Virus record (IMG/VR): IMGVR_UViG_3300044535_001032
Coordinates: 1 to 45,024 of that record
Direction: 5' to 3' (one strand)
Length of the DNA stretch: 45,024 nucleotides
Source: a virus
This document shows positions 2-18,800 of the stretch, piece by piece. Both the position numbers and the translations under genes were made by a program. The stretch's first letter is position 1, and every line of letters begins with the position of its first letter. The notes under the pieces were generated by a model that had not been told where the DNA came from, searched no databases, and worked only from the letters and a program-made list of their open reading frames with translations.

Positions 2-1648
2 ATAGCTTATGATGAAGCAACTATTGCTGGAAACACAATAGATAATATGACAAGAACAGCCTTTAAGATTGATAAGGATGGTGGATTTGTAAAACCAGAG
101 AGACCAGCTAAAATGTCACAACAGGCATATGACAATTTATTTGGTGATTTTGGAATCATTACTGAACTTCAAGATTCTGTAATAGATGGTAAATATAAAA
201 TTCTATCTGAGGATGTTATGATTTTTGATCCATCTCTACTTGAGTCAGGTCTTGTGGGTGCAATGGACTTAGTTGCTTTTGACACTGAGACCGGGGATCT
301 TAAAATTATTGATATCAAAACAGGTAAAGAAGAGAACTGGAAAAACTTTAATGATGACAGTAAGTTTAATAAAAAACTTACTTATAGATTACAGCAGTCT
401 ATTTACCGAGCTCTCTTATTTAACATGACAGGAGAAATTGCAAAGAGTATATCTATACTTCCAATATCTATCACAACTGATATGGATGGTAATATTCTTT
501 CTGCTGAATCAGCTGCAAGATTAGTAAACAATGAAGCTCTTCGTGAAATGAAGAACAAACTTCTTGCATTAGAAAAAGCTACTACTCCAGATAAAGCTAA
601 GATAAGTGAGCTTGAGAAAAAGATAAAAGATCTTGAAAAAGCTACTACAGTTCCATTACAACCTATTGATGATGCAACGCTGGCTGAGTATGGAGTTGTT
701 ATGAAAGCTCCAAATCTTCCGGAGAATCTTAAACCTGAAAATGTAGGACAGGAAAAAGCTGAACCTAAATTAACTCCTGAACAAGTTGCTGCTGAAATTA
801 AAAAGATCAAGAAAAAAATAGCTGAGACTGATAAAAAATTAGCTGCTCTTCCTAATGGTGGTGTTATAGCTGTAGGTGATATGATTACCATGTCTCCACA
901 ATATGATAAGCTAAATGCTAAAAAAATGCAGTTAGAAGCAGACCTTGCTAAGCTTGAAAAACCAGGAGAACCAGAACAAGATCCTATTGATGATGAAATC
1001 AATGCATTGAAGAAGGGTGTTAAGGATGCATTTCCAGCACCAGAAACAATTACTTCTGCTGTATTTAAAGAGCTTCTTAATAAAATGAAAAGTGCAGATA
1101 CACTTGCTGCTCTTGAAGAAGCTTACACAGATGCAGTAATTGCAATTACAGCTGAGACAGATGTAACATTTGCAGATCTTGTAGAGAATGTATATACTCT
1201 TAGAAAGATGGCTCTCAACGTGGATACCTCAGAGGAAAACATAGGTATTGGTGATTATCTTATCAGCAAAAATCCTATCTTTGGTGTGACTGAAAACGAG
1301 ATAGTAGTGGTTAAGAAAAAAGCTGATGGTAAGATAACTGTCAATCAGGTTGAGAATATTGAAAACGGTAAACCTAGACAGAAAACTTTTACTGATGCTC
1401 AAATAAAAGCAGGCTTTACAAAAACTACTGAAGAAGCATTAAAACAAGAGGAGGAGATAATGGAACCTACACAAGAAGAAGAAGAAAATTCTAACATTTC
1501 AAAAAGCAGTCTTAAAGACTTTGCAGATAATCCTGAGCTTATTGATAAGGCCAAACAAAATGCAGCATCAATGTCTAAAAAAGACAGACTAGCAGCATTA
1601 AAGAATAAGAATAAAGAAGATAATATTAATAATTGTAAACCAAAATAG
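2..1648 (+). CDS. PD-(D/E)XK nuclease-like protein, 5'-truncated by the window edge
   Basis: The frame is open to the window edge (15 codons before the first ATG at 47), so the true start is probably outside. Numbered from that ATG, residues 71-91 carry the PD-(D/E)XK nuclease pattern: GAMD (D74), then IIDIK (D89, K91), then Q117-x-x-Y120, as in RecB/Cas4-type nucleases. Residues 150-310 are rich in Lys/Glu/Ala heptads and are probably coiled coil. The C-terminus is charged and ends N-I-N-N-C-K-P-K. It lies 2 nt upstream of the RNA polymerase gene, in the same orientation, so it is probably co-transcribed and may be virion cargo (inference). The fold call rests on motif spacing only. Confidence 0.6.
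   Translation: MAYDEATIAGNTIDNMTRTAFKIDKDGGFVKPERPAKMSQQAYDNLFGDFGIITELQDSVIDGKYKILSEDVMIFDPSLLESGLVGAMDLVAFDTETGDLKIIDIKTGKEENWKNFNDDSKFNKKLTYRLQQSIYRALLFNMTGEIAKSISILPISITTDMDGNILSAESAARLVNNEALREMKNKLLALEKATTPDKAKISELEKKIKDLEKATTVPLQPIDDATLAEYGVVMKAPNLPENLKPENVGQEKAEPKLTPEQVAAEIKKIKKKIAETDKKLAALPNGGVIAVGDMITMSPQYDKLNAKKMQLEADLAKLEKPGEPEQDPIDDEINALKKGVKDAFPAPETITSAVFKELLNKMKSADTLAALEEAYTDAVIAITAETDVTFADLVENVYTLRKMALNVDTSEENIGIGDYLISKNPIFGVTENEIVVVKKKADGKITVNQVENIENGKPRQKTFTDAQIKAGFTKTTEEALKQEEEIMEPTQEEEENSNISKSSLKDFADNPELIDKAKQNAASMSKKDRLAALKNKNKEDNINNCKPK
572..648 (+). repeat. Imperfect direct repeat inside a coiled-coil segment
   Basis: The 14-mer GAAAAAGCTACTAC occurs at 572-585 and again at 635-648. 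Both copies encode L-E-K-A-T-T in the nuclease-like gene. It looks like a short internal duplication of a helical heptad block. Confidence 0.6.
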
Positions 1649-1650
1649 AA

Positions 1651-4600
1651 ATGGCTTGTGAACTCTATACTGAAAATGATATAAGTGCTTTATATACAAT
1701 AGTACGTGGAGAGATTATGGATAGAATCCAGGATCCCAAACTTGGTAAATTTGATGATAAAGCATTAAACAACTTTATCAAAGAAGTGTATGAAGAGTTT
1801 AAAGATGAACCAAACGGTATTCTTTATGTCCAAGCTATTCCTGACATGTTAGATATTGTTAAGAATGATCTTGAAATCAAAAAGTATTTAAGACAGGATG
1901 CTGGTCTTAGTTTTGACTATGTACAAGACTTATCATTAGACTTTGAAGATCTAAACAATGTAATGAAGTTTGTTTCTCCAAAGGTTGAAAAACCTTCAGA
2001 GAAAGAAGTTAAAAAAAAGATTAAACAGAGTAACAAGAATTCAAAAAATGTAACTCAGAATAATGATAATAAAGCACAGACTCCATGGTCTTCTGTGCAG
2101 GAAAAAGCAAAAGTAGATTATCCAGATAAATTGTCTGGACAAATTGCAGTAGCAAAGAATCCTGAAAAGATGACAGAAGCTGAGAGAAATGAAAAGGATC
2201 CTCAGAAAAAGCTTTTCTATGAAGTAATCAAAACTGTAGTAAGACAATCTCAAAGAAGAGAAGCCAATGACAATGTCATGTTAGGTGATACTGCAGTTAT
2301 GCTAAGAGCTCAAAACATTAGAGACTTAGATCCTGCTGATATGACTGACTATGATAAGTCATTCTTAAGCAAGAATAAAACTTATGATATTAATATTGCA
2401 ATCATTTCAGATGTAAAAGGTAATCCTGTACGTTTTGATGAAGAAGGTAATATTGTTGAGACTGGTGGTAGAATTGTATATCAATATATAAGACCGGTTG
2501 TTAACCAAGGCAGCAAACTTTATCTAGGAAATAGATCAGGCTTTCTATATAGCTTGATTCCTGCAGAGACATTAGCTAAAAGAGAGATAGAATCTGATAT
2601 GGCTGATGGTAAACTTTATGGGGAAGAAGAAAGACAAGCAGTTCTTGCTAGAATAAAAGCAAAGCAAACTCAGTTAATGAATGATTTGCTAAGATTGAAT
2701 AACAAACTAGCAACTACTTCTGATCCAGTATTGCTTCCTATTACAGGAGGTAGTTATGGTATTGTTGAACACAAGTCAGAGTTAATATCTAATACAGACT
2801 TTGCTGATGACTTGGATATGATCTTTACACATGACTCAGGTGCCATGGAAGGTTATAGTTACTTTATGGTTAATAGAGTAAAATCTGGAGTTGCTGTGGA
2901 TAGCAGAATCTATTTACAAAAAATGGATATGCCAGAAAGTCTTGCAGATAACTTAGCTAAAGTCTTAACTACTAAAGGATTGTTAAATGGTGAACCTTTA
3001 TCTCCACAGGCTAGACTAGAATATTACAGCACGTTTTTATCTAATAGAGTTTTAGGAAATAATATCAATGTGCAGATAAAAGAAGTACTTGGTATTAATC
3101 AACTTACTGTAACTATTAAAGATCCAATTACAAAAGAAACAACTCAAGTTGATTTAGATAAGGCTGATGCTGCAGATATTATTAGCAAGCATCTTAAAAA
3201 AGTTAAAGTATTTACACAGAAAGACGGTACTCAAGTTAGCTATCCTGCTAGTATGAGTTACATGAAATCTTTTTCTGAAGGAGGAGCAATACAGAAAGGT
3301 ATTAAGTTTACTGATTATGATTTTAGTACTAGTAAAAATAATACTGAAATAATTAAAGAAGTTCAAAAAGATTACTTTGGTTTTATTAAACCACTGACTA
3401 AAGTAGATTATACAGAAGGAGACTCAAGTTACTTTGTAGGTATCAATGCTTATATGTCATTTACTATTCCTGCTGATCTTGAAACACCAGCAGAAGATTT
3501 AGTAGATATAGGTGTTCCTAAAGAAGACAATCTTACTTCAGATGATATAGATAATGGTACTGAAGCTGACAAAAAGAAAGCTAAAGCAAAACCTAAAGTT
3601 GAAGAAGAGGAAGATGGAGTTAAGTTTACAATTGAAACAATGGTTTCAAGTTTACCTAATGACAAAACTCTTATTGCAAATATCAATGAAGCTGATGCTG
3701 TATTTGGATTAGGTACAAGTTTTACAACTACTGATGAAAAGGTAGTAGAGCAAAGAGCTGGTAAAGAAGGTAAATGGTATGGTGTAAAGATTGGTTCTAA
3801 GAAAGATGCTCCAAAAAATTTAGTACCACCACAAGCTTCTATTGACCAAATGGTTAAGAATCTTTCTCAAATGAAAGGAGGGATTGTAAATATCATTGGT
3901 AATGACATGGCTCAACTTGCTAAAGAGGGTTATACTCAAGCTGAGATAGATAAGTATATCTATAATATTCTTAAAGAAGTTACTGATCAATATCCTATAA
4001 CTCAATTAATTAGTAATGGACAAACTGGTATTGCTGAAGCATCAATTAAAGCTGCAAAGAGACTTGGTATTCCTGTAAAAATTAGAGCATTTACTGGATA
4101 TAAACTCAGAAGTGCTGCTCCATATTTAGCATCAGGTGTTAAAAATGAAAAGAATACAAGAGCAGATTTTCTATCCCGGTTCTTTAGCAAGTCATCTAAA
4201 ACTTATAAGAAGGCAGCTAACAAAGTAACTAAACCAGAAGATACTGATACACAAGTTCCTGCTAAACCAGTTATACCTGCCAAGACTGTTGAGCAACAAA
4301 AAGTTGTTGACCGTAAAATTAATAGAACATCATTAGATGATTTATTAGAAGGTACAGACATGATCCCAGATCTACCTCTTGACAGAAGCAAGAGAGCTGC
4401 TACAACAATGAATCAGTTGTATGGTGCCAAAGGCTGGGAGGAAGTACAAAAATTTTGGGATAAATCTCCATTGAAAAATGTAGTTGATGTTGAAAGACTA
4501 GCACTTGTGTTTAACTCTACAGCTTATGGTACATTTTTATCTGCAGGTTCTTTACTAGCAGATGCTGCCAATAAACTTAGAGCACAAGGATTTGCAGCAA

Positions 4601-7600
4601 GAATTGAATTGTATGGAGATGCTCAACCAATTACACTTTATCACGAAGCATGGCATGCATTCTCTCAATTAGTATTAACAATTGAAGAGAAGACTAAACT
4701 CTATGATGAAATTAGAAAGTATGACAAGTGGGCAAATAAAGAATACATAGATATTGAAGAAGACTTAGCTGAGGACTTCATTGACTATGCAGCTAATGGT
4801 AAAAAACAAACTGGATTTATACAGACAATCTTTGATAAGATTAAAAAGCTTATTGATTTCTTTTTTGGTAAAACAACCAAGAGAGATGTAACAAGGTTGT
4901 ATGATATACCTATGGTAAAGAATTATTACAAACAACTTTACACAGGTAAGTTTACTGTGGATACTCAGAATGCTGAGAATAATTTCATGCCTGGTTTCCA
5001 AAGACTGAATAGCTCAAAGAAAACAATTCAACCACTTGAAAGTGAAGCTGCCGGATTTGCACCTATTACAGATGTTGAGTCTAATAAGATTGTAGACATA
5101 ATGGATTCTTTGATGGCAAGAAGCTTTAGACTTTATAATACTAGTTATAATACTACAAGCGGAGCAGTAAGATTATTAAATGATGTTACTAATAGACAAA
5201 GACTTTATTCTAATATTGAAAAGCAGCTAAAGGTTTTACTTAATAACCAAACACAGATAACTCAAGACCTTATGCTTAAAAATGCAGAACCTGGTAATAC
5301 AAATCCAGATTATGTTAGAGAGCAAAAAGAAATGGCTAAGCTTGAGATCTTAATGAAAGCTGTAGATAATTATGGTGTTGTAGATGAGGCTTTAAGTAAG
5401 AAAACAAATAAAGGTGTTGTTGCATTTCACATGCAGAGATCAAGATTCAGTATTCTAAAAGAAGCATACATTGATGACATAGAAGATGCATCAACAGCAT
5501 TGTTTACATCTACTGAAGGAAATAGTATTTCTGCTAAACAATTAGCTACAGATGATACAATGATGATGTTATCTGGTATCTATGCTTTGGAAAGAGATCC
5601 TGATCAAAACTACATTTTTGAAGAAGATGAGAATGGTGTAAAAACATATGTTGTAAAAACAGATGAGTTTGGACTTCCAGAACTAGAACCCGTTGATAAA
5701 ATGTGGAATAGAGTTGCTAGAACACTACAAGGCTCTCTTGATTTCCAAGAGATGCATGATAGACTTGGTAAAGGAATTGAAAACAATCCTGAGTTTATTC
5801 AAGTTCTTGAGACTCTTCCTAACCCATATCAAATGGGACCAGGAGCATATAACAATAAGACTGAGTTCCAGTCAGAGACAAACTTCTGGCAGGATCTTAA
5901 GAAGCCTGTGATACCATTTATTCAGTTGAATATAAATAAAACTGTCATAGAAAAAGCTAAGACTGTTGATGGTAAAAAAATACCTGAAAAGGCTAAGTAT
6001 GAATCTAGATTGGCTGCAGCTAACTTTGATATCTATAGAATCATCAATGATTGGACAACAAACTTTAATGTTGCAGATCCTGCAACTAATGATTTTGTAG
6101 AAAGAGATGACTTTGGAAACAACTATCTAAATGTTAATGAAATCATTAAAAGATTTACAATAGACAAAAAGCTTGACCCAAGTAAGGCAAGTGAGTTTCT
6201 TGCGGCTCTTGGTATTCAATTAGATATGACTAGTGCTGATATTAGAAATGTTGTAAGAAATACTAAAAAACCATTTGCTTCTTCTGCATATAATGTTGAT
6301 TTTATCTATGACAATATTAGATTAGTTTACCTGGCTGGTAAATCAGATGACCTTGGTCTAAATGCTGCTGCAGAAAAATTCAGAAAACAACCTTTGTTTC
6401 ACTTGATGAATGAGTTACCTGAAGCAATTGTAAAAGCTGCTGGTGGTAAAGCAAGAGATGTAAGAAGTAAAATCAGCATGCTTGCTCAGTTGCAAAATAG
6501 ATTCTCAGATGGTTACTCTAACTATAGTGTATTAACTCCAGAAAAGAATAAAGTATGGGAACAATTCTTAGACAACTCAGTAACTAGAATTGTTACATCT
6601 ATTAATAGAGCTAAGAACTGGCAACAGTTAACTATGGATGAAGCTGATCCTAATGGTAGATTCCAACATATGAGATGGTTGTCTGAAGATAACAATCCTG
6701 CTTCTGCATTCTCTGTTATTTTAAATTCAGTTTTTGATTTAGATCCTATGTCAGATACATATGGAGAGAAGTTACCAGGAGCTGAATTGCTACTTGAAAA
6801 CATTGGTGGTACTCAAATCATCAATAAAGAGAATAATGAATCTACAGGAACTTCAACAGCAAGTACTGATGTAACAAGTAAGTTCTTACAAGAACTACAT
6901 ACAATGTTACAGTCTGGAGTTCAAGAATTCATGAGACATGCCTCTAAACAGACGGCAATGAACATAAGAGCTAAAAAAGTAAATACCTATTCAGGTAAAA
7001 AACTTGCCAATCTTTATGTAGACATCATGTCCTTTAGTCCAAATAATACTACAGCGGGTAATAACTTAGGTGAGTCTCAAGCATTCAATGTTATTCTTGG
7101 TTATATTGCTGCAGAGGCCGGAAGGATTTACAGATTTAAATCAAATCCTAATTACTTTAAAAACTTCTCTGCATATAATAGAGAAGTAGTAAGAAAAGAT
7201 AATGACAAAGCTGTAGCTGCCGGTGCTGCATTTACTGCATTTGATGATGTGTTATCTCCAGAAGTACAAGGTAAATTGTATGATCTAATTGATAACTATA
7301 TTGATGGTGCAAACAATGAAATGCTACAATCAGGTTACTTTAATATAGATGACTTTAATTTAAAAGACATTGTTAATGCAGATCCTGAATTAAGAAAGGA
7401 AATAAAAGATGATGTAATTGACTATTTCAATAAACAGTCACAGCAAAATTACAGAAGACTTGAAGATGCTAGATATGTAGATCAGAGTCTTTATGAAATG
7501 GTGGCTTCTGATGAATTTAGTAAGGATCAAGTAGACAAAATGCTTGTTAAAGCATATACTTATAATTCATGGATTCATAACTTCGAAACAACTATACTTG

Positions 7601-10600
7601 CTTATGGTGACTTGGTTCAATATAATCATGACAAAGAAGAGTTCCATAAAAGAAATGCCGGTGTAGGTTCAGGTGGTAGAGGCTTTAGAGCAGACTTTAG
7701 AGCTAGAATGTATATCAATAGTCCTCTGTTTCAAAAACTTTATTCTGAAGCTGAAGGGTATGATCTAAGAGCTTATAATGGTACTTTAAATACAGCCATA
7801 ATTAAAGAAGAAAAAATTAAGGAGTCTGTATATAAACCAGAATACTACGAAGCCCATGTTAAAGATTATACTGAAAGATTCTTAAAAGCCGGTAAGTCAA
7901 AAGCTGAAGCTGAAAGGCTTGCTAAAGATCTAGCTGAAACAGTACTTGGTGAGTATGATAACATGAAGATAGCTGATGGTCAAGGATGGATTAGTTTTGA
8001 ATCATACAGAATGCTTAAAAATCTTGAAGGTTCTTGGTCAACAGAACAAGAGAACTTATACAAGAGAATTGTAAACAAAGAAACAATCAGTGCTTCTGAG
8101 ATTAAAGAGTTCTTCCCTTCATATAAATTACAGTACTTTGGAAACATTAAGACTAAGGGTTTACCACTAACGTCATTCCACAAGTTCTCATTGGCACCTT
8201 TAATTCCAACAGTGCACACTGCTTCTACTAAGTTAGGTCAGATTCATGATATGATGATGAAACAAGGTATTGACTATGTGTTGATGGAAACTGGTGAAAA
8301 AGTGGGACACTTTGGAGAAGGTGATACAATCATAGATGAAAATGGTAATGTAGATAGTACAGCTACATTTACTAAGAATGTAATTTTTGCAGAGTATCTT
8401 AAGAACCAAACAGAAGTAAACTCTAAATATAAAGCTAAGTCAATCTTCTCAACACAGTTAAGAAAGTTGATTCTTGAAGGTCTTTATGAGAATGGTGAGA
8501 TTACTTCTAATGATCCTGCAGTTAGAAGACTTGTTACTAACTATGTAGATAGGGTTGCTGCTTATACAGAACTTCTTAAGAATGAGTTGGTTGATGAACT
8601 TGGGTTTGAAGAAACTGAAGATGGTGAGTTTGTTCCAACTGCTAAGGATAGTATTGCAAGACTTGCAAAAATGATCCGGGAAAATCTTACAAGAGATGAT
8701 GTATATAGTGACAATCTAATAGACATTATTGATGTAACTGATGAAGGAGACTTAAGATTTGACTTATCTCTACATCCAGAGGCTGTGAAGATTGAAAAAC
8801 TTTTATTGTCATTAATCAATAAAAGAATTATCAAGCAGAAAGTAAAAGGAGAACCACTAGTACAGAAGTCATCTGCTTTCTATGATGGTTTATTTGAGTT
8901 AAATCTTGACATAGATAAGATGAATCCTGCTGCACGTGATGCTGCAGTTAAAAAGTATATGGGATCTAATTTCCTACCTACTTATCATAGAGGTGCTAAT
9001 GGTAAAACAACAGCAATGAAAGTTGCTATTTCACTTCAAGGTGATTATGAGAACTTGCTTAATCTAGATTACAAAGGAGAACCTATCTCTACTATAGATA
9101 GACTGAATGAAGCTATTAAAGATGATGAATGGTTAGATGCAAATGACGGTGAGAATAGAAAAGCTATAACAATGGTTGGTGTTAGGATTCCAGTACAGGG
9201 TCTAAACTCTATGGAATTTATGGAGGTGTATCACTTCCTTCCACCACAAGCTGGTAATATTATTATTCCTCCAGCTGAAATTGTTGCTAAATCTGGAGCT
9301 GACTTTGATATTGATAAGTTATCAATCTTCATGAATAACTTAGATGCAGATGGTTATGTGAAAAAAGCAATGTTTGAAAACAATGAAGATTTCTACAAAG
9401 CTGTTAAAGATCCTTCTAAGTATGATATGAGCAAAGCTCAAATGTATGCAATGCAAAAGGCCGGTATTGAGAATGAATTAATCAATGATATCAGAAGCAT
9501 TCTTGAATTACCACAAAACTTTGTGTCACTTACAACTCCTAACGGAACATATCTTGTTAAACCTACAGCAGATAGATTAGCTCAATTTGTAATGGACTAT
9601 AGTCCTGTAAAAAACATGATGAGTGAAAATTCAAATCTTTCTGCTCCTGACAAGAATGGAAAACAGAAACAAGTAATTAGTCCTACCAGAGTACTTGAAG
9701 TTGGATATAACTTATACAAACACGAGTCTAATGTTGTTGGTAAGAAAACTTTGGGTCTTGGAGCAATTGAGAATACATTCAATGTTATCTTCAATTCTTT
9801 GGGTGCAACAATGCCTGCAGTATATAAGCATAGTGATGAAGAAATAGATAGAATCTCTTTCTTAGGTTTGAGACACCATACAGCAAATAAAAATGGAGAG
9901 GATGTAATTTCCTTATCTAATCAGTATGATGTTGATGGTATTAATAAAGTAGCTGACGTAATCAACCAGTTGATGAATGGTTGGGTGGATGTTGAGAAAG
10001 ATGCATGGGTATTCTTTGTACAAGGAAACTATGAGGTTGCACCTATACTACTTTACTTACTTAAAACAGGAGTACCATTTAAAGAAGCTGCATACTTTGT
10101 ATCTCAGCCTCTTGTAAGAGAGTATGTTAAAGAAAAAAGACTTGCTCAAAGTACTTTTGCTGAACCGTTAAGAAAAGATCCAGGATTCCAGGGTGTATCA
10201 TTTAAGGCTGCAAGCAATGTAATTGCTAAAAACTTTAAAGATTTCTTAGCTGATAATCAAACAAGATATCAGGTTGGAAAAAACATGATGGATAGTTACT
10301 TTGACAAGAAAAAATTAAAAGGGGATGATAGACATTTCACTGAAGAAGAAATGCTTAGATTGATTGAGACTTCAAAAACCAATCCTAATGCACAACAAAG
10401 TGATTTATCTAAGACAATGTTCTTACATTTCTTGACAATTGAACAACAAATCCAGGGACTTACTGCACTAAAAATGGCTTCTAATCCTGATACATCTACT
10501 ATGACTGATGTAGGACAAGCTATTCAAGCAGAATCTAACATGGATGCATTAGCTGAAGAAACTAAAATTGATCAAGATCTAAGAACTAGTATGATCAATG

Positions 10601-12876
10601 ACTCTATCATTAGTTCTTTCTTTAATACAAAGTTGATTAAAGGTCTAGCTAAACCATTGTTTAAATTTAGATATGATGAAGATATACAAGACTATATCCA
10701 ATCATATATGGGAAGCTTTAAAAATGCTTCAGTATTAAAAGCAATGTTTGGTAGAAACTACCGGGATAGATTCCCTGTTGTATTTAGGAATGACATCTTA
10801 AGTTATATTTTCCAAAATGCATTAAGAAAATACAATCTTGGTTCTGAATATAGTTCCTATGCACTCAGTGATTCTATTAAGTTAGTACCTGCTGCTGGAC
10901 TTAAGTTTGGAGCACAAGTTGTTGAAACTCCTCAAGGTCCTACAGTAGTAGTAGACAGAGTTCAAATTGAAAAAGAATTCTATGATAAAGCTTACTTAGA
11001 GTCTAGTGAAGCAGCCAATAACTATGAAGATAGAGGTTTGTATCCATTACAAGCTGGTCATTTTGGAAGTAACATTGGTTCTAACAAAGATGAATATATC
11101 CGCTTTGTTATTGAGAGAGAATACTTAAGACATCTAATGCCTGTAGAAGAAGTAGTAAAAACTACAGAATTTAAAAAGGAATTAGAGAATGCTTTGAAAA
11201 CTAGAGTAAAGGGTGGTATCACTGAAAACAGAAGATATGCTTATGAAAAAATCATAGCAAGCAGAGCTCTTGATAATACATTGAATCCTTATCACTTGTT
11301 CAATGATAAAGACCTGGCTTATTCTATAAGATTGGATAGATTAAAAACAGAATACAGAAATGATTTTGTTGGAGACTACCCTGTTCTAGCAAGAATGGTC
11401 ACAGAGAGTAATAATGATAAGACAATGTTTAATCTTTATGCAGATGACAAAGACATGAATACTTTCAAGTCTAATCTATACTCAAGAAATCTATCTGATC
11501 TTGCTAATAGAAATGTTACTAAGGTTGATGATAGAGCTGAAAATGATAGAATCAGTGACTTCTTTGCAAAAATTACATACGTTGCAATGTTGCAATCAGG
11601 TACTAATAAAAACAAATACAACTTCCTAAGCTTAACTGACTTTGATAAGTTTATAGATGTGATGAATGATGAGACTGCTAAGTTCTTAGAATCACCGGCA
11701 AAACTTAAAATGCTTGTTGACTTTAAGAATAAATTTGAGCAGGTAAACAGTCAGACAAATAGAGACAGATATAGATTTAAAAATTATCTTACTGCATTAA
11801 ATGCAGAAAGATTGGAGTCAGAAATAAGAGCAAGAATACCTGAAGACAGAGGTTTTAAATTATCAATAGATAAAAAAGGAAAAGACCAAGGTAAAGCTGA
11901 TTTAGCAAATGCTTATATATCATTTCCAAATCAAGGAACTTCAAGTTGGGCTTATAGACAAGATGCAATAAAAGCTGGAATACCTGTTAACGAGCAAATA
12001 GTTGCTGATCAAAACACGGTAGCTTTTGTATCTGTAAATGGTAATAATAAAGCTACTAAAGAACAATTAAATGACACCATTAGAGAAGCTCAAAGAATTC
12101 TTAATGCTGGTGGAACTGTTATTATGGATGGTGCATTTGATGCTATAAGTAAATGGAATGAATCTGGAGAAGGTGTTGTACAAAAAGCTTTAGGAAATCC
12201 TGATGGTATAACTTCTCAAAAATATAATTATTGGGGAACAAATCCAGAAAATACAATAGAACCTGAAACCGAAACTTCTGAAAATCTTATAGAAAGAAAG
12301 AATCTTATTCCTACTGTTAATCCTAATGTATTTGTATACAATGATCTTTCCGGAACTGAAAAAGCTTACAAGTATATTACGGATAACAATCAAGATATAA
12401 CATTTGTATACCAATTTAGTCTTGGTCAAATGCAAGCATATGATAAGATGACTCCTGCAGAGTTTAATAAAAGAAAACTTACAGGTCAAGTGCTTCTTAG
12501 AAAACTTGCTAATAGTTCTTCTATAGGTATAATTACTGGTCAAGATAAAGTATCTGATGCTTTCTCTACACTTGAGCAAAAATATTATCCAAAAAGAAAA
12601 GCTGATATTGAAAAAGCTATTGCTCAAATCAATGAAGTTATTCAAAATGGTGGTAAAGTTGCTTTCTCAATCAATGGTTATGGTGATCCTGCTTTGATGC
12701 CTCAAGAATTATTCGTATATTTAAGTAGAAGACTTTTTGAAGAATTCCAATATCTTAATCCAGGTTCGGAGTTTGCAAAGGAAGTAAGTTCAGAGGTGGC
12801 TAAATATCAACCTGTAACAGATGCAGAAATATTAGCTAAATTTGAAGGAGAGAATAACCCACTAAATTGTCAATAA
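1651..12876 (+). CDS. crAss-like virion RNA polymerase, giant multidomain protein
   Basis: At 3741 residues it is much longer than the roughly 2200-residue polymerase of phage phi14:2. The core is RIPVQG (R2512) followed by SGADFDIDK, with D2551, D2553 and D2555 as the predicted Mg-binding aspartates; the R-x-P then ADFD-x-D layout mirrors multisubunit RNAP beta-prime and eukaryotic-type RNA-dependent polymerases. Other segments: an SLOG/YspA-like stretch around 740-850 with ISNGQTG at 787-793 and AAKRLGIPV after it; a zincin-like HEAWH at 998-1002 with an acidic helix (IEEDLAEDF) about 35 residues later; and two similar C-terminal pieces, AFVSVNG (from 3458) and VAFSINGYGD (from 3670). By analogy with phi14:2 it would be packaged in the virion, injected, and transcribe early genes. 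The stop overlaps the next ATG by one base (TAATG). Only the DFDID assignment is firm. Confidence 0.9.
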   Translation: MACELYTENDISALYTIVRGEIMDRIQDPKLGKFDDKALNNFIKEVYEEFKDEPNGILYVQAIPDMLDIVKNDLEIKKYLRQDAGLSFDYVQDLSLDFEDLNNVMKFVSPKVEKPSEKEVKKKIKQSNKNSKNVTQNNDNKAQTPWSSVQEKAKVDYPDKLSGQIAVAKNPEKMTEAERNEKDPQKKLFYEVIKTVVRQSQRREANDNVMLGDTAVMLRAQNIRDLDPADMTDYDKSFLSKNKTYDINIAIISDVKGNPVRFDEEGNIVETGGRIVYQYIRPVVNQGSKLYLGNRSGFLYSLIPAETLAKREIESDMADGKLYGEEERQAVLARIKAKQTQLMNDLLRLNNKLATTSDPVLLPITGGSYGIVEHKSELISNTDFADDLDMIFTHDSGAMEGYSYFMVNRVKSGVAVDSRIYLQKMDMPESLADNLAKVLTTKGLLNGEPLSPQARLEYYSTFLSNRVLGNNINVQIKEVLGINQLTVTIKDPITKETTQVDLDKADAADIISKHLKKVKVFTQKDGTQVSYPASMSYMKSFSEGGAIQKGIKFTDYDFSTSKNNTEIIKEVQKDYFGFIKPLTKVDYTEGDSSYFVGINAYMSFTIPADLETPAEDLVDIGVPKEDNLTSDDIDNGTEADKKKAKAKPKVEEEEDGVKFTIETMVSSLPNDKTLIANINEADAVFGLGTSFTTTDEKVVEQRAGKEGKWYGVKIGSKKDAPKNLVPPQASIDQMVKNLSQMKGGIVNIIGNDMAQLAKEGYTQAEIDKYIYNILKEVTDQYPITQLISNGQTGIAEASIKAAKRLGIPVKIRAFTGYKLRSAAPYLASGVKNEKNTRADFLSRFFSKSSKTYKKAANKVTKPEDTDTQVPAKPVIPAKTVEQQKVVDRKINRTSLDDLLEGTDMIPDLPLDRSKRAATTMNQLYGAKGWEEVQKFWDKSPLKNVVDVERLALVFNSTAYGTFLSAGSLLADAANKLRAQGFAARIELYGDAQPITLYHEAWHAFSQLVLTIEEKTKLYDEIRKYDKWANKEYIDIEEDLAEDFIDYAANGKKQTGFIQTIFDKIKKLIDFFFGKTTKRDVTRLYDIPMVKNYYKQLYTGKFTVDTQNAENNFMPGFQRLNSSKKTIQPLESEAAGFAPITDVESNKIVDIMDSLMARSFRLYNTSYNTTSGAVRLLNDVTNRQRLYSNIEKQLKVLLNNQTQITQDLMLKNAEPGNTNPDYVREQKEMAKLEILMKAVDNYGVVDEALSKKTNKGVVAFHMQRSRFSILKEAYIDDIEDASTALFTSTEGNSISAKQLATDDTMMMLSGIYALERDPDQNYIFEEDENGVKTYVVKTDEFGLPELEPVDKMWNRVARTLQGSLDFQEMHDRLGKGIENNPEFIQVLETLPNPYQMGPGAYNNKTEFQSETNFWQDLKKPVIPFIQLNINKTVIEKAKTVDGKKIPEKAKYESRLAAANFDIYRIINDWTTNFNVADPATNDFVERDDFGNNYLNVNEIIKRFTIDKKLDPSKASEFLAALGIQLDMTSADIRNVVRNTKKPFASSAYNVDFIYDNIRLVYLAGKSDDLGLNAAAEKFRKQPLFHLMNELPEAIVKAAGGKARDVRSKISMLAQLQNRFSDGYSNYSVLTPEKNKVWEQFLDNSVTRIVTSINRAKNWQQLTMDEADPNGRFQHMRWLSEDNNPASAFSVILNSVFDLDPMSDTYGEKLPGAELLLENIGGTQIINKENNESTGTSTASTDVTSKFLQELHTMLQSGVQEFMRHASKQTAMNIRAKKVNTYSGKKLANLYVDIMSFSPNNTTAGNNLGESQAFNVILGYIAAEAGRIYRFKSNPNYFKNFSAYNREVVRKDNDKAVAAGAAFTAFDDVLSPEVQGKLYDLIDNYIDGANNEMLQSGYFNIDDFNLKDIVNADPELRKEIKDDVIDYFNKQSQQNYRRLEDARYVDQSLYEMVASDEFSKDQVDKMLVKAYTYNSWIHNFETTILAYGDLVQYNHDKEEFHKRNAGVGSGGRGFRADFRARMYINSPLFQKLYSEAEGYDLRAYNGTLNTAIIKEEKIKESVYKPEYYEAHVKDYTERFLKAGKSKAEAERLAKDLAETVLGEYDNMKIADGQGWISFESYRMLKNLEGSWSTEQENLYKRIVNKETISASEIKEFFPSYKLQYFGNIKTKGLPLTSFHKFSLAPLIPTVHTASTKLGQIHDMMMKQGIDYVLMETGEKVGHFGEGDTIIDENGNVDSTATFTKNVIFAEYLKNQTEVNSKYKAKSIFSTQLRKLILEGLYENGEITSNDPAVRRLVTNYVDRVAAYTELLKNELVDELGFEETEDGEFVPTAKDSIARLAKMIRENLTRDDVYSDNLIDIIDVTDEGDLRFDLSLHPEAVKIEKLLLSLINKRIIKQKVKGEPLVQKSSAFYDGLFELNLDIDKMNPAARDAAVKKYMGSNFLPTYHRGANGKTTAMKVAISLQGDYENLLNLDYKGEPISTIDRLNEAIKDDEWLDANDGENRKAITMVGVRIPVQGLNSMEFMEVYHFLPPQAGNIIIPPAEIVAKSGADFDIDKLSIFMNNLDADGYVKKAMFENNEDFYKAVKDPSKYDMSKAQMYAMQKAGIENELINDIRSILELPQNFVSLTTPNGTYLVKPTADRLAQFVMDYSPVKNMMSENSNLSAPDKNGKQKQVISPTRVLEVGYNLYKHESNVVGKKTLGLGAIENTFNVIFNSLGATMPAVYKHSDEEIDRISFLGLRHHTANKNGEDVISLSNQYDVDGINKVADVINQLMNGWVDVEKDAWVFFVQGNYEVAPILLYLLKTGVPFKEAAYFVSQPLVREYVKEKRLAQSTFAEPLRKDPGFQGVSFKAASNVIAKNFKDFLADNQTRYQVGKNMMDSYFDKKKLKGDDRHFTEEEMLRLIETSKTNPNAQQSDLSKTMFLHFLTIEQQIQGLTALKMASNPDTSTMTDVGQAIQAESNMDALAEETKIDQDLRTSMINDSIISSFFNTKLIKGLAKPLFKFRYDEDIQDYIQSYMGSFKNASVLKAMFGRNYRDRFPVVFRNDILSYIFQNALRKYNLGSEYSSYALSDSIKLVPAAGLKFGAQVVETPQGPTVVVDRVQIEKEFYDKAYLESSEAANNYEDRGLYPLQAGHFGSNIGSNKDEYIRFVIEREYLRHLMPVEEVVKTTEFKKELENALKTRVKGGITENRRYAYEKIIASRALDNTLNPYHLFNDKDLAYSIRLDRLKTEYRNDFVGDYPVLARMVTESNNDKTMFNLYADDKDMNTFKSNLYSRNLSDLANRNVTKVDDRAENDRISDFFAKITYVAMLQSGTNKNKYNFLSLTDFDKFIDVMNDETAKFLESPAKLKMLVDFKNKFEQVNSQTNRDRYRFKNYLTALNAERLESEIRARIPEDRGFKLSIDKKGKDQGKADLANAYISFPNQGTSSWAYRQDAIKAGIPVNEQIVADQNTVAFVSVNGNNKATKEQLNDTIREAQRILNAGGTVIMDGAFDAISKWNESGEGVVQKALGNPDGITSQKYNYWGTNPENTIEPETETSENLIERKNLIPTVNPNVFVYNDLSGTEKAYKYITDNNQDITFVYQFSLGQMQAYDKMTPAEFNKRKLTGQVLLRKLANSSSIGIITGQDKVSDAFSTLEQKYYPKRKADIEKAIAQINEVIQNGGKVAFSINGYGDPALMPQELFVYLSRRLFEEFQYLNPGSEFAKEVSSEVAKYQPVTDAEILAKFEGENNPLNCQ

Positions 12877-15800
12877 TGTTTTGTGAATCAAGGTCAACAG
12901 TTTTAGAAGATTTAAAAAAGAAAGGTATATTAGGAGAGTTCAATGACATATTGGACCCAATTGAGTTTGATAAATTCAATAAAGAATTCACCCGGTTTAC
13001 ACAGCTTAAATACGGCCTAAAACTAAATGAAGATGAGTACTTCTTTAATGAACCATATGAAGTTCAAACAAGATACCCTTATTCATCTAGATATTATAGA
13101 GATGATGTTAAGGTAACTATCTATGCTCAACCTAATGATGAGCTGTTTAATGCATTGGATGATGTCAGAATGTTAGAAGACATTAAAGAAGCTACAGATG
13201 ATTATGATATCTTAAAGGAACCAGAGTCAACATTTGAAGAAGATGAAAGTCTAGATCCTATGTTTATGAGAGACACCTTTGAGAGTTCTTCATTAAACAG
13301 AGAGTTCTCTAAAAAAATGAGATCAGCAATGATGTCATTTATGGAGGGTTTAAATATTAAGGTTGAAGAAATTGACGGTGAAATCATTCCTGTTAAAAGA
13401 AGAACTTACATTGATGAGAATGGTATTACAAAAGTTAAAGAAGATCCATTAGCAGCATTTGACTTGCTTCAGAAGTATTTAGCTATCAAGGAAAATATTT
13501 CTGATAAAGACTTGGCTATGCATACAGCCAATGTTATAGTTAGCTTTTTAGGTAAAAAATCCAAGCTTGGAATTGAGTTATGGAAAGGTATAGATAGCTG
13601 GCCTAAATACAGAAAAGTTTATGACAAGTACAACAGCCGCAAAAGAACTGTTGAAAATACAACCAAAGAAGAAGTTGATTATCTAGCTGAACAAGAGGGT
13701 CAAGAGTATGTGAGTACTCCTTATTTAGAATATCAACAAGCCAAGGAGGTAGTTGATAAAGCATATGAGTATGATCCTTCAAGATTTAATCCTTTTGCTC
13801 ACAAACAAGCCATCATTGAGTTTATAGCTGAAATGATAGTTGTTGGTGTTGACAATAACTTTGTAGGTGATAAAAAGAAAAATCCTGATATCAGTAAAGA
13901 GTATTTTGAAAGTATTGGTTATAAGGATAAATATGCAGAGAACTGGTTCAGAAAAATGCTTAATAGATTCTGGAACTGGATGCAAGAAAATATTCTAAAT
14001 AACAAAGCTATTACTATATACAAGGAAGCTGAATTAAGAAATACTGTACTTGACATTGTAGATGATGTCTATAAAAAGAACTATGATAAGTTCATTAGAA
14101 ATTATTATCAAGATTCAAGTGGGAAATTCTTTGATAATAAGGGCCAAGAATATGAGCAAAAGTTTTATAATACCAGTTTAAAAAGAGATGAGTATGCAAA
14201 ATATATAATTGATACTCTTTTCAATTCACCTTTTGAATATAAACTAAGTGGATCTTTAGTACTAAGAAAATACGGTAGAGTATTGAGATCCTTTAGTGAA
14301 GAGCTGCATGATATTGATGGGATTATTACTCTTGATCAATTTAGAAGTGAGGATAACCATCAAGAATTTTTAAAATGGATCCAAGGACGTGGATTAGAAC
14401 TAAGCCAAAAAAGAAGCAAAAAGAATAGTGAAACCTTTGTAAAAGAAATGATGCCATTTCTTGAAGGACAATCTTGGTATAAAAACTTAAAGGAGCAGTT
14501 TCCTACATGGAACTTTGAAGTTGGATTTATTGGCAAAGACCATAAGAAGGGTGAGTCAATAACCATATCAGGTTATGTAGAACATCCTACAGAAACTGTA
14601 CTTGTAGAAAATGCTGATGGTAGTGGTGCCGCTAACTTCTTTAAAGCATCTGATAACGGTAAAGTAATGCCTAAGAGATATGTACTTGACTTTTTCTTAA
14701 GAACAGATGAGGGTAAATATCCTTTAGTATTTGATAACTACTTCTTAGACTGGAAACAGATCTTTGAAGCTAAGATAAACATGGGTCGAGGTAAGGATTT
14801 AACTGACTTAGTTTACTTTGTACCATTCTTTGAAGACAAATATAAATTTACTAATAAAGGATTTAGATACTTTACATTTGCAGATGATCATTTTTCTGAA
14901 ATGCCTGATCAATCAGAAATGAAAATAGATGAGGCTACTATAAAAAATGAAAGAGCAAAAGAAGTAGCTGATGCTTTAGGTCAAAAAATTGCTCAAGCTT
15001 TGGGTGTACAATACATGTATGTTACAGAACAAGAAGCAAAACAAATACTTGAGTCTAGAAAGAAAACATATAGTGGTGAACCGGCTTTCTTCTTTGGAGG
15101 AGCTGTATACATTGTCGGAGATAATGTAAATGTAGACACAGTACTCCATGAACTATCTCACCCTTTACTGAGAGCTATCTACAAAGAAAACAGAACTCTC
15201 TTTGATAACTTGTATAATGCATTAATGGCTACTACAGAAGGAGACATTATTAAAGAGCATGTACTTAAGAACTATCCAGAATTAAAAGAAGGTGATCCTT
15301 TATTTAAAGAAGAGGTTTTAGCTTATGCAATGCAGAGAAAAGCTGCTAATATTGTTACTAATCAACTTGAGTCAGAAGGTTTTGAATCATTCATGTCTAA
15401 ACTACTAAATGCAATCAAAGATCTGATTAAGAGAATCTTTGGTTCTAAAGTAAAAGTTGCAGATATAGATGTAAATACAAACATAGAGAAGCTAGCAAAC
15501 ATGTTATTAGATGAAAGTTTTGAATACAAAACTGATTTTATAAGCAATGATGAGCTAGTTGCATATGCAAGGGATATAAAGGAAATGGCTAATGCATTGG
15601 TAAAAGATGTGAAAGCAGAAAAAATCCAAGAGTCCATCAATGACTTGTATGCAACAAACCAATTGATCTATGAGAAAGCTATAAACTTTAGAACTAGATC
15701 TCCTCTCTATCAAAGAATGTTGAAGGAAGCTTTGTTTATTAAAGGTACTCAAGAGTTATTACCAAGGGTAAAAAGAAGTTTATCTGGATATCAGTCTATT

Positions 15801-18800
15801 ACAAACAATCAGAATCTTTCATTTGAAGAGATTATAAAAAATACCGTTGAAGCAGAAAAAGCAAGAACAGAAGACTTAACTAACCGAGCACGTAGTTTTG
15901 TAAACAGTGTTGCTGTAGTTAATAATATTTCTCAGAATATCTTCAAGGATCTGAACATGATGCAAAAAAGCAAGCAGTTTGATTCTAGAGATGCTATGGC
16001 TCTTTTATTCTTATACAGAAGTTCTATCAGATCATGGAATGACATGTTTGATACATTTGATGAGTTAATCATGGAACAAGATGAGTTTGATGTTACTCAA
16101 CCAAATGAATTGATTGACTTAGTTAATGAGACTAAGAACAACTTGATGCGGGCTGATAAAAAAATTAGAGAGATCTATAAAGAAAACAGTATCAACTTCT
16201 ATGTAGAGGTAACTGGTTATATGAATGATTTCTTAAGAGAAGAGTTAGGTAAAAACTTAAAATCTACCTTAACTGATAAATTATCTGAAACTGAGATTGA
16301 TGAGCTATACAAAGGTGTAATTACCCAAAGTTTTACAGATCAAGACTTGAATGAGCTTTATGACAAGTATGAGAAAAAAGGTGTTGAATCTAAGTACATC
16401 AAGAAATTTATTGATGAGTACAAAGAGTTCCTAGTTAATCAAGACAAGATTACAGATGGTCTTTCAGGTAAGCTAAAAGATGTAAGTTGGTTTAATAGAT
16501 TCTTTGAGAGCTATACTTCTAGTAATGATCCTATAGTGGGTGGATTAGCTATTTTTATTAATGACCAAAGAACTGAAGCTAACAACAGGGCCCTTGAAAA
16601 GTCATATCAGTTTAGAAAAAAACTTGAACCTCTTTTAGAAAAAGTGGGTTATAGTACTACTAAAACTAGACAGTTGACTGACATGTTGATGTTTAAAGAT
16701 AAGATTCTTTACATTGATCCAAAAACAAAAAAACCAGTTGAAAAAGAAGTTCTTACTTTCTTAAATGAATTTGGTAATGGTTGGAGATATGCTCAAGACT
16801 TACTTGAATATCAGGTAGATGAAGCATGGGCATCTGAAGATCAAGAAAAAATCAAACAAGCTACTGATGCATTAAGACAGTTTAAGAAAGACTACATGCA
16901 TGATGAATTTATTTCGGAAGTGTATGATAAGGATTCTGTTTTTGAAAAGTATGGGGATGTAGGTAGAGCTGCATGGTTAGCTAGAAAGATGGCTATGGAT
17001 GCTTATAATAATGAGTCTAATGAAATCACTGATGAGTTAGAAAGATTCCAGAAGTACTCTGTATTGCAAGAACTTTGGCAAAACTATAAGAATCTTTATT
17101 CATTAAAGTATGCAGATGGTACCAATAAGGTTGATGATCCTGCAAATGGTATTTATGATTTAACAATCACAAGAATTTTACTTGAGCATAGAGAATCTAC
17201 TGGTGACTACTATGAGTTTATTCCTAGAGCTGGATCATTGCAGACTGCATTTAATGAGTTTTTAAGTTTAAAAGAACAAGAAGGTGTTACACCTGAAGAG
17301 TTAGAAGAAGCAAAGCAAGATTGGTTAAAACAAAACTTAAGAGTAGCCTATACTCAGAAGTTCTATGATTCAAGAAAAGAACTTATCACTAAACTAAAAG
17401 AACTTCAGGGTAAAGTAAATACTGTAATTGGAGAAGAGTTTGATGTAAGTAATGCATATAATGAGATTTTTAACTTAATGTATGCATACAAAGATGAACA
17501 AGGTCAACCAATTCCAGAACAATTAGGTCTTGATAAGCTTAAAACAATTAAAGAACTGAATCAAAAGATTATTGATTACAAAGCAAAATTTGATACTAAG
17601 TCTGGTCTTTCTAGAGATGAGGCTGAAGAACTTGAGTTATATATTGCAATCAATAAAAAGAATCCAGATAGATTAACTCCTGAGCAAAAACTTAGATACA
17701 GAGAATTGCTACAGAAGCAGGCTAAGACTGGTCTATCTATTGGAGAAGTTGCTTTAATGCAAAGTATTTATGCTGAGTTGTCTTCATTAACTCAGAAGAT
17801 ACCTACTGAGTACTATGTTGATGCATTAAATGAGCATCTTCAAAGATTAAATGTTACTCCTGTCACTGTTGATGAAGTAGACAACTTTATTAATAGTGAT
17901 GAAATGAAAGCTCTTCTTAGAGAAGATGGTAAAATCACAGATTGGTTTAGAGATAATCATGTCTCTAGAAAAGTTAAGAATAGAAAAACAAGAAAGCTTG
18001 AGATTAAATATGAAAGATCAATGGCTAACTCTGTTTCTGTTCCTAAGAATGATGAGTACTATGAAAAAACTACTTTGTTTAATGAGTTAACCGGAGAAGA
18101 AGAAACCTTTAATGGTTTGCCTAATGCTAGACACTCTATTTATAGAATTAAAGATAAATACAGAACTGGTTATAATCCTCAAACAGGAGAAGTGGAATTA
18201 CTAGTAGGTGTGCATATTGACAATAAAGGCCAATATCTACCTAGAATGTATAAAATGGGTGATCCTAACTCTGCTAAGAATGATGATTACATCAATAAGG
18301 ATTACATGAGACTTAAGGAACAAGGTAATAGTCCAAGATTCCAACTTCTTGAGTTAATGAAAGAGGCTCATCTTTCATTCCAAGAGGATAAGTCAAATAA
18401 ATCCAAGTTGTATTTAGACATGCCTCGCTATGTTCTAAGAGACAATCTTTCTAGAATTCAGGCTGGTAAACTAGGTGAGAGATATTCTCAAATCAAAAAA
18501 GGTGTGGGTCAATCTCTGAGAGATGCATTTGGTAAATCTGTAGATGAAGCTGAACTTGAGTATAACTATGAATCAGAAAATAACCTGGAAGAATATAGAC
18601 TTGTAAATACAGATTTAAATTCATCTGAGGTATCTTATATACCAGTAACTGGTTTATATAATCTTGATGTTGATAATACTGATCCAGATGTAATCCGTGG
18701 TATGTTTAAATACTTGCTTTCATTAGAGCAACAAAGTCAGTTATTGCAGACTCTACCTCTTGTTAATTCTATACTAGATACATTAGAAGATCCCGCAAAT

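Follow-up and report, generated by a model that had tools for sequence, protein, structure and literature searches.

Why would a phage place an RNA polymerase motif, a protease-like motif and a nucleotide-binding-like segment in one polypeptide of 3741 residues, and which of these parts are additions to a known polymerase? Among the viruses of the human gut crAss-like phages predominate, and for most of their giant injected transcription proteins few domains have been assigned. The reading that we favour, with a probability of roughly 0.6, is that this open reading frame (ORF) encodes the zincin-plus-RNA polymerase (RNAP) part of the transcription machinery injected by a deep environmental lineage of Crassvirales type, in which the zincin is an active peptidase and the SLOG module is swappable.

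The locus and its relatives

The window, by which we mean the whole stretch of DNA analysed, is a complete IMG/VR record of 45,024 bases that covers part of a larger phage genome. Positions 1651-12876 of its plus strand, stop codon included, form a single intact ORF with an ATG start and no internal stop, which has 26 full or partial homologues in IMG/VR. ORF translation and a motif scan confirmed the giant ORF and the three motifs that an earlier note on this DNA had described: DFDID lies at residues 2551-2555, HEAWH at 998-1002 and ISNGQTG at 787-793, each in one copy. The counts expected from the composition of the protein are 0.004 for DFDID, 0.018 for HExxH and 0.025 for GQTG, and any HExxH appeared in 27 of 2000 shuffled sequences. 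A chance origin of the HExxH and DxDxD motifs is excluded, because both are conserved in relatives.

Downstream, on the opposite strand, lies a replication block with a B-family DNA polymerase, primase, helicases and uracil-DNA glycosylase, recognised by eye in the translated sequences. The layout described for crAss-like phages includes both a transcription and a replication block (PMC7886860). Kinship with Crassvirales is suggested by the long contigs of relatives, where the crAss-type major capsid protein was found in all eight and the terminase large subunit in seven of the eight; the 45-kb window itself has no structural block. In a tree of RNAP cores the window's clade sits on a long separate branch.

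The RNA polymerase part

A profile built from 18 full-length relatives matched PDB entry 6vr4, the RNAP gp66 of phage phi14:2, at E 1.4e-18; the match runs collinearly over three stretches, among them DFDID and a conserved block that follows it. Alignment of residues 1950-3741 against gp66 using hhalign gave 1.6e-26 over about 1965-2830, equivalent to gp66 859-1666, and weaker collinear matches lay further upstream. The three aspartates of the catalytic motif (D2551, D2553 and D2555; bases 9301..9315) are invariant in the 18 relatives. The RNAP core matched 90 phage records by tblastn, and the matches listed are crAss-like or unclassified faecal phages. Judged by this homology, residues about 1116-3370 (4996..11760, plus strand) are a two-barrel RNAP of the gp66/gp50 type, best supported over 1965-2830. 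DFDID as the mark of a crAss-like virion-type RNAP, proposed in the earlier note, was thereby borne out, and the strong homology to a solved barrel implies that the motif should lie in a double-psi barrel (DPBB-B).

The same comparison changes what counts as an addition. The earlier note had counted about 2500 residues before the motif and about 1200 after it. The first count is true, but these residues are not all additional: gp66 itself has its motif at residue 1361 of 2180, with 1360 residues before DFDID and 815 after it. The idea that all 2500 N-terminal residues are an addition was rejected on alignment with gp66, and the true surplus over gp66 is about 1190 residues at the N-terminus and about 370 at the C-terminus.

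The C-terminal surplus, residues 3370-3741 (11758..12873, plus strand), is variable. It contains a lineage-specific segment at 3400-3540 and a weak DUF7831-like stretch at 3608-3678 (E 0.0045), which was the only match found in Pfam, PHROGs and NCBIfam; the C-terminal segments had no match among phage records. At the other end, residues 1-660 (1651..3630, plus strand) are conserved within the environmental clade and gave no significant match in Pfam or PHROGs and no recognised domain. They were considered as a homologue of phi14:2 gp67 or of crAss001 gp47 and rejected, since no match to either was found. They are followed by a SLOG module, a linker and a zincin-like domain.

A zincin-like domain conserved across Crassvirales

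The zincin-like domain occupies residues 905-1115 (4363..4995, plus strand) and is supported by conservation and by alignment to crAss001 gp47. Its motif is of gluzincin type: HEAWH (4642-4656, plus strand) is followed by a conserved glutamate, E1037 (4759-4761, plus strand), which is the candidate for the third ligand. In the 18 full-length relatives H998, E999, W1001, H1002, E1036, E1037, A1040 and E1041 are invariant; H998, E999, H1002, E1037 and A1040 remain so when crAss001, cr128_1 and six further gut phages are added. A scan with the zincin alignment found at least 329 relatives, from which 80 loci were taken, leaving 62 after removal of near-copies. All 62 of these environmental loci have HExxH with the downstream glutamate, and in 59 of them a DxDxD follows in the same ORF, 1461-1670 residues beyond HExxH. 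The domain was also present in 46 of 46 and in 12 of 12 contigs, and the HExxH...E pattern is invariant in all named Crassvirales checked except phi14:2. With the crAss001 zincin as query 64 phage records were obtained, the matches listed being crAss-like or unclassified faecal phages; nearly all the annotated ones are in large transcription-block proteins.

An hhalign comparison of the domain with crAss001 gp47 (2143-2247) gave E 2.7e-9. The top PDB profile matches are the Pro-Pro endopeptidases (PPEP/Zmp1), a weak match at E 0.1 that nevertheless places both HExxH and EExxAE in register. Pfam, PHROGs and NCBIfam gave no significant family for the domain. In the AlphaFold model the HExxH and Glu-motif helices are confident and the β-hairpin before HExxH falls below pLDDT 50, as it still does when the domain is modelled alone with hairpin-aligned rows. 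For this model, which has no modelled sheet, Foldseek and VIA returned no PDB relative and no zincin among their rows. Membership of the zincins rests on motifs and conservation, which identify the domain as zincin-like. The earlier note was correct on the motif; the domain is no special acquisition of this gene, being conserved across Crassvirales and encoded in crAss001 by a separate gene, gp47.

The exception, phi14:2, has no HExxH in gp67, and the zincin is therefore dispensable in at least one cultured phage. A different HExxH is present in its gp65 (HEIMH, residue 245), and phi14:2 may use this one instead. We note that the 2543-residue protein encoded downstream in the window also has its own conserved HExxH (HELSH, 15147-15161), which gives the operon a second zincin-like site; its relatives read HEFSH, HEFAH or HEFGH. 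The RNAP protein of contig L027 carries an extra C-terminal HEAAH at residue 3479, with a weak match to the putative metallopeptidase family DUF4344 (E 5e-4).

One gene order, a moving gene break

The gene upstream (47..1648, plus strand) is cut by the contig start, to which its frame remains open, leaving the C-terminal 533 residues. These carry a PDDEXK motif near 263-322 and match PF12705 at E 1.2e-4, and the family to which the gene belongs (1916-2654 residues) matches the PDDEXK region of crAss001 gp47 (1692-1913) at E 6.7e-30. On this evidence the upstream gene is the counterpart of the main part of gp47, and it is this gene and not residues 1-660 that matches gp47. The downstream gene (12876..20507, plus strand) starts at a TAATG overlap and has the genomic position of phi14:2 gp65. 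Its product has a LysM-like match (PF01476, E 3e-4) at residues about 2216-2243 and hydrophobic segments near its C-terminus.

The setting resembles that of phi14:2 gp65/gp67, with giant neighbours, virion proteins in phi14:2 and presumably so in the window, in abutting or overlapping genes. The RNAP and its DFDID are homologous to those of gp66; unlike the window, phi14:2 has gp67 and gp66 as separate genes, and neither the zincin-like nor the SLOG motif is present in gp66. crAss001 gp47 and gp50 contain the same PDDEXK, zincin and RNAP families. There, the zincin ends gp47 (HEAFH at 2157 of 2341), and the RNAP is gp50, encoded on the opposite strand and without SLOG. There is also a likeness to the fused giants of Suoliviridae (cr118_1, cr113_1, cr115_1, cr130_1 and cr273_1; 4328-5801 residues), in which zincin and RNAP share one ORF in the window's order and at similar spacing. 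Unlike the window's protein, cr130_1 (5801 residues) also holds the PDDEXK part, so that PDDEXK, zincin and RNAP follow one another within one protein; the environmental contig G048 has one ORF of 6385 residues with the zincin.

In crAss001 the gene break thus follows the zincin; in the window's clade it precedes the zincin by about 1000 residues, and elsewhere there is none. As judged from these sequences, PDDEXK, zincin and RNAP hold one order while the break shifts around them; the exception is cr108_1, where the PDDEXK match is in the third protein. An order-wide zincin-like domain that Pfam does not see is in this way located, with the PDDEXK nuclease part on one side and the RNAP on the other, and the varying gene sizes are explained by a moving break in one conserved order.

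Three loci have unusual breaks. In cr108_1 (L004 3850-15440) the RNAP is split within the catalytic motif, as if by an intron: one ORF ends in ...IVAKAGSD and the next resumes the RNAP about 290 bases later. In L054 the zincin and the RNAP motif are in two ORFs (5520-12092 and 12086-15919) with a 7-base overlap, which may be a frameshift or a young split. In L019 (2282-20527) a single TAG separates the zincin-RNAP gene from the upstream gene, with which it shares its frame, and read-through would yield about 6080 residues.

Probable delivery and role of the zincin

With RNAP, zincin-like and SLOG parts, the protein combines unrelated domains in one chain, as polyvalent proteins do, and we would place it among the virion RNAPs or polyvalent injected proteins, its delivery being deduced from virion homologues. 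MS/MS notes record phi14:2 gp65-gp68 as virion proteins, and crAss001 gp45, 46, 47, 49 and 50 were found in the virion by mass spectrometry, the authors' model being ejection before the DNA and refolding in the cell (PMC10172136). By analogy with phi14:2 gp65-gp68 and crAss001 gp45-gp50, the protein would be packed in the capsid head, ejected through the tail before the DNA in an at least partly unfolded state, and refolded in the host, where it would transcribe early genes. The zincin is most likely an active metallopeptidase that works at or after ejection, and its candidate targets are a co-ejected protein, its own flexible linkers or a host protein.

Similar combinations occur in other phages. 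The N4 virion RNAP is likewise a giant ejected polymerase with an HExxH zincin-like domain in its chain (PMC5512222, PMC12633501); unlike the window's RNAP it is T7-like and unrelated, and its HExxH is C-terminal to the RNAP, so that the architecture is convergent. The tape-measure virion RNAP gp96 of P23-45 unites a metallopeptidase with a two-barrel RNAP (DFDGD) within a single giant protein of the virion, but it is fused to a tape measure protein and has a clamp-less RNAP at its N-terminus (PMC10770324). The presence of a metallopeptidase-like domain in the chain of N4, P23-45 and crAss-like virion RNAPs suggests a shared need at ejection. For the zincins of N4-type polyvalent proteins, self-processing and host targeting have both been proposed (PMC5512222).

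The first of these proposals corresponds to the suggestion in the earlier note that the protein could mature by cleavage. The zincin would cut the adjoining linkers, so that the virion contained separate N-terminal and RNAP fragments. The position of the domain is suited to this, at the border of the gp47-like and gp66-like parts and beside length-variable linkers, such as the K/T/P-rich linker at residues 853-904 (4207..4362, plus strand), which was defined by alignment and has pLDDT below 50 over much of its length. The break between the separate crAss001 genes is also close to the zincin, and the zincin-bearing polyvalent protein DdrB of P1 is processed before packaging (PMC5512222). However, in crAss001 and cr128_1, whose RNAP is another gene, the catalytic residues are just as invariant. 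Since they are kept whether the two parts are fused or separate, cutting the zincin-RNAP joint cannot be the general function of the domain, and release of the RNAP from the fusion would not be its conserved job. Moreover, the N4 virion RNAP with its HExxH domain is reported to be packaged unprocessed (PMC5512222), and no conserved cleavage site was identified. We therefore do not favour maturation by cleavage, and regard it as doubtful.

Alternatively, the HExxH domain could be catalytically idle, serving as a structural or zinc-binding spacer for packaging or for RNAP architecture. The fold search recovered no peptidase. In N4, the C1 domain has an HExxH, and no protease activity is reported for it in the accessible part of the source (PMC12633501); the region of the N4 virion RNAP that contains the metallopeptidase domain is needed for encapsidation (PMC5512222). 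Against this, strict order-wide conservation of the general base E999 together with the ligand triad is hard to explain without catalysis, and we consider an idle domain unlikely.

The SLOG module

Residues 668-852 (3652..4206, plus strand) gave an AlphaFold2 model with pLDDT mostly above 90 and contain the ISNGQTG segment (4009-4029, plus strand). The best VIA match is 3imk, with Z 7.6 and rmsd 2.3 over 100 aligned residues (model 1-116 on chain residues 55-157); the next row has Z 6.0. The Z below 8 and the alignment of about half of the SLOG domain are expected from a permutation. A profile of 19 SLOG modules also placed 3imk first among PDB sequences (E 6e-4), and because its two segments match in swapped order, the domain must be a circular permutation of the arrangement in 3imk. 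That entry is entitled "putative molybdenum carrier", a name formerly used for the cpYpsA family, PF12694. The window's segment alone has no Pfam match. Its Pfam link runs through homology: the SLOG profile matches an insert in the phage Bcn25 at E 4e-27, and the Bcn25 module matches PF12694 with 33.9 bits (cut-off 26.2). The model, the sequence and structure match to 3imk and the Bcn25 result together uphold the SLOG-like assignment of the earlier note, and the module can be described as an accessory SLOG domain of cpYpsA type.

It shares with the cpYpsA family and 3imk the fold and a GGQTG-type motif. The C-terminal and Bcn25 copies read GGQTGFD or GGQTGID; unlike these, the window's clade reads NGQTGIA or variants such as NGESG, and the canonical aspartate after GGQTG is replaced. 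This loss bears on activity and not on homology, because other clade members that lack the aspartate match the same profile. The replacement hints at ligand binding more than hydrolysis. The letters GQTG were rejected as a marker of the domain, since the profile finds it where they are missing (TGQSG and NGESG in relatives).

The module occurs in three places: on the N-terminal side of the zincin in contig L088 and in the window's clade; at the C-terminus in contigs L059, L098, L106 and L107 and in cr10_1, which is the only case found by the SLOG profile among the Suoliviridae fused giants; and near the N-terminus of a separate RNAP gene in Bcn25. Of 46 further contigs, each with the zincin and some of them fragments, 42 lack the module. 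Wherever found, it lies within the RNAP polypeptide. On a tree of 74 RNAP cores, which has several long branches and a bootstrap that had not completely converged, the presence of SLOG requires at least eight changes, and the four C-terminal cases need four.

The clearest case involves cultured phages. Between crAss001 gp50 and its homologue in Bcn25, 2401 of 2412 residues (99.5%) are the same, and the two proteins differ by one clean insert of 196 residues after residue 79 of gp50, which is the SLOG module. We compared 30 close records of this RNAP. The SLOG insert is present in Bcn1, 2, 3, 20 and 25; crAss001, Bcn13-19, Bcn21-24 and tikkala are insert-free; and Bcn4-12 and cr112_1 have longer genes at this slot. 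The two of these that were inspected, Bcn5 and cr112_1, carry different inserts after about residue 61-62, that of cr112_1 being an A1S_2505-family phage domain (E 6e-29). The gp50 of crAss001-like phages has an insertion slot around residues 61-79 (loci L001 4399-12225, L032 27486-34724, L123 and L124). In the accessible part of the report on the Bcn isolates the RNAP is called only slightly variable and inserts are unmentioned (PMC10354031). The distribution identifies SLOG, at the level of sequence comparison, as an accessory cassette gained, lost or moved among related phages.

That SLOG is instead an integral nucleotide-sensing regulator of the RNAP, as its constant presence in the RNAP polypeptide and the proposal that SLOG fusions to nucleic-acid enzymes sense host signals (PMC9503650) might suggest, is improbable, given that nearly identical infectious isolates exist with and without it (Bcn25 and crAss001) and that it takes three positions and is so often absent.

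Implications

The order-wide zincin, the gene break moving around it and the cassette slot are apparently new: no account of them was found in the literature searched, though an earlier mention of the zincin is possible. It has been proposed that SLOG domains of viruses break down or sense immune signals derived from ADP-ribose (PMC9503650), and an exchangeable module carried by a protein that must be injected would fit this proposal. Riding on the RNAP, the SLOG module probably acts early in infection, and its most likely task is to bind or remove a host signal derived from a nucleotide. Remodelling of the host at entry, as the earlier note suggested, is possible, and the evidence for it is better in the case of the SLOG cassette than in that of the protease.

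More tentatively, the crAss-like virion RNAP, which has to be injected first, might for that reason be a delivery chassis: phages would load exchangeable cassettes against host defence (SLOG, A1S_2505-type and others) into particular slots of it, to counter signals of NAD/ADP-ribose type. The slot is present in near-identical cultured phages of B. intestinalis, which makes the role of SLOG directly testable with existing isolates. If the chassis interpretation is true, host immune signals would be bound or removed ahead of all phage gene expression.
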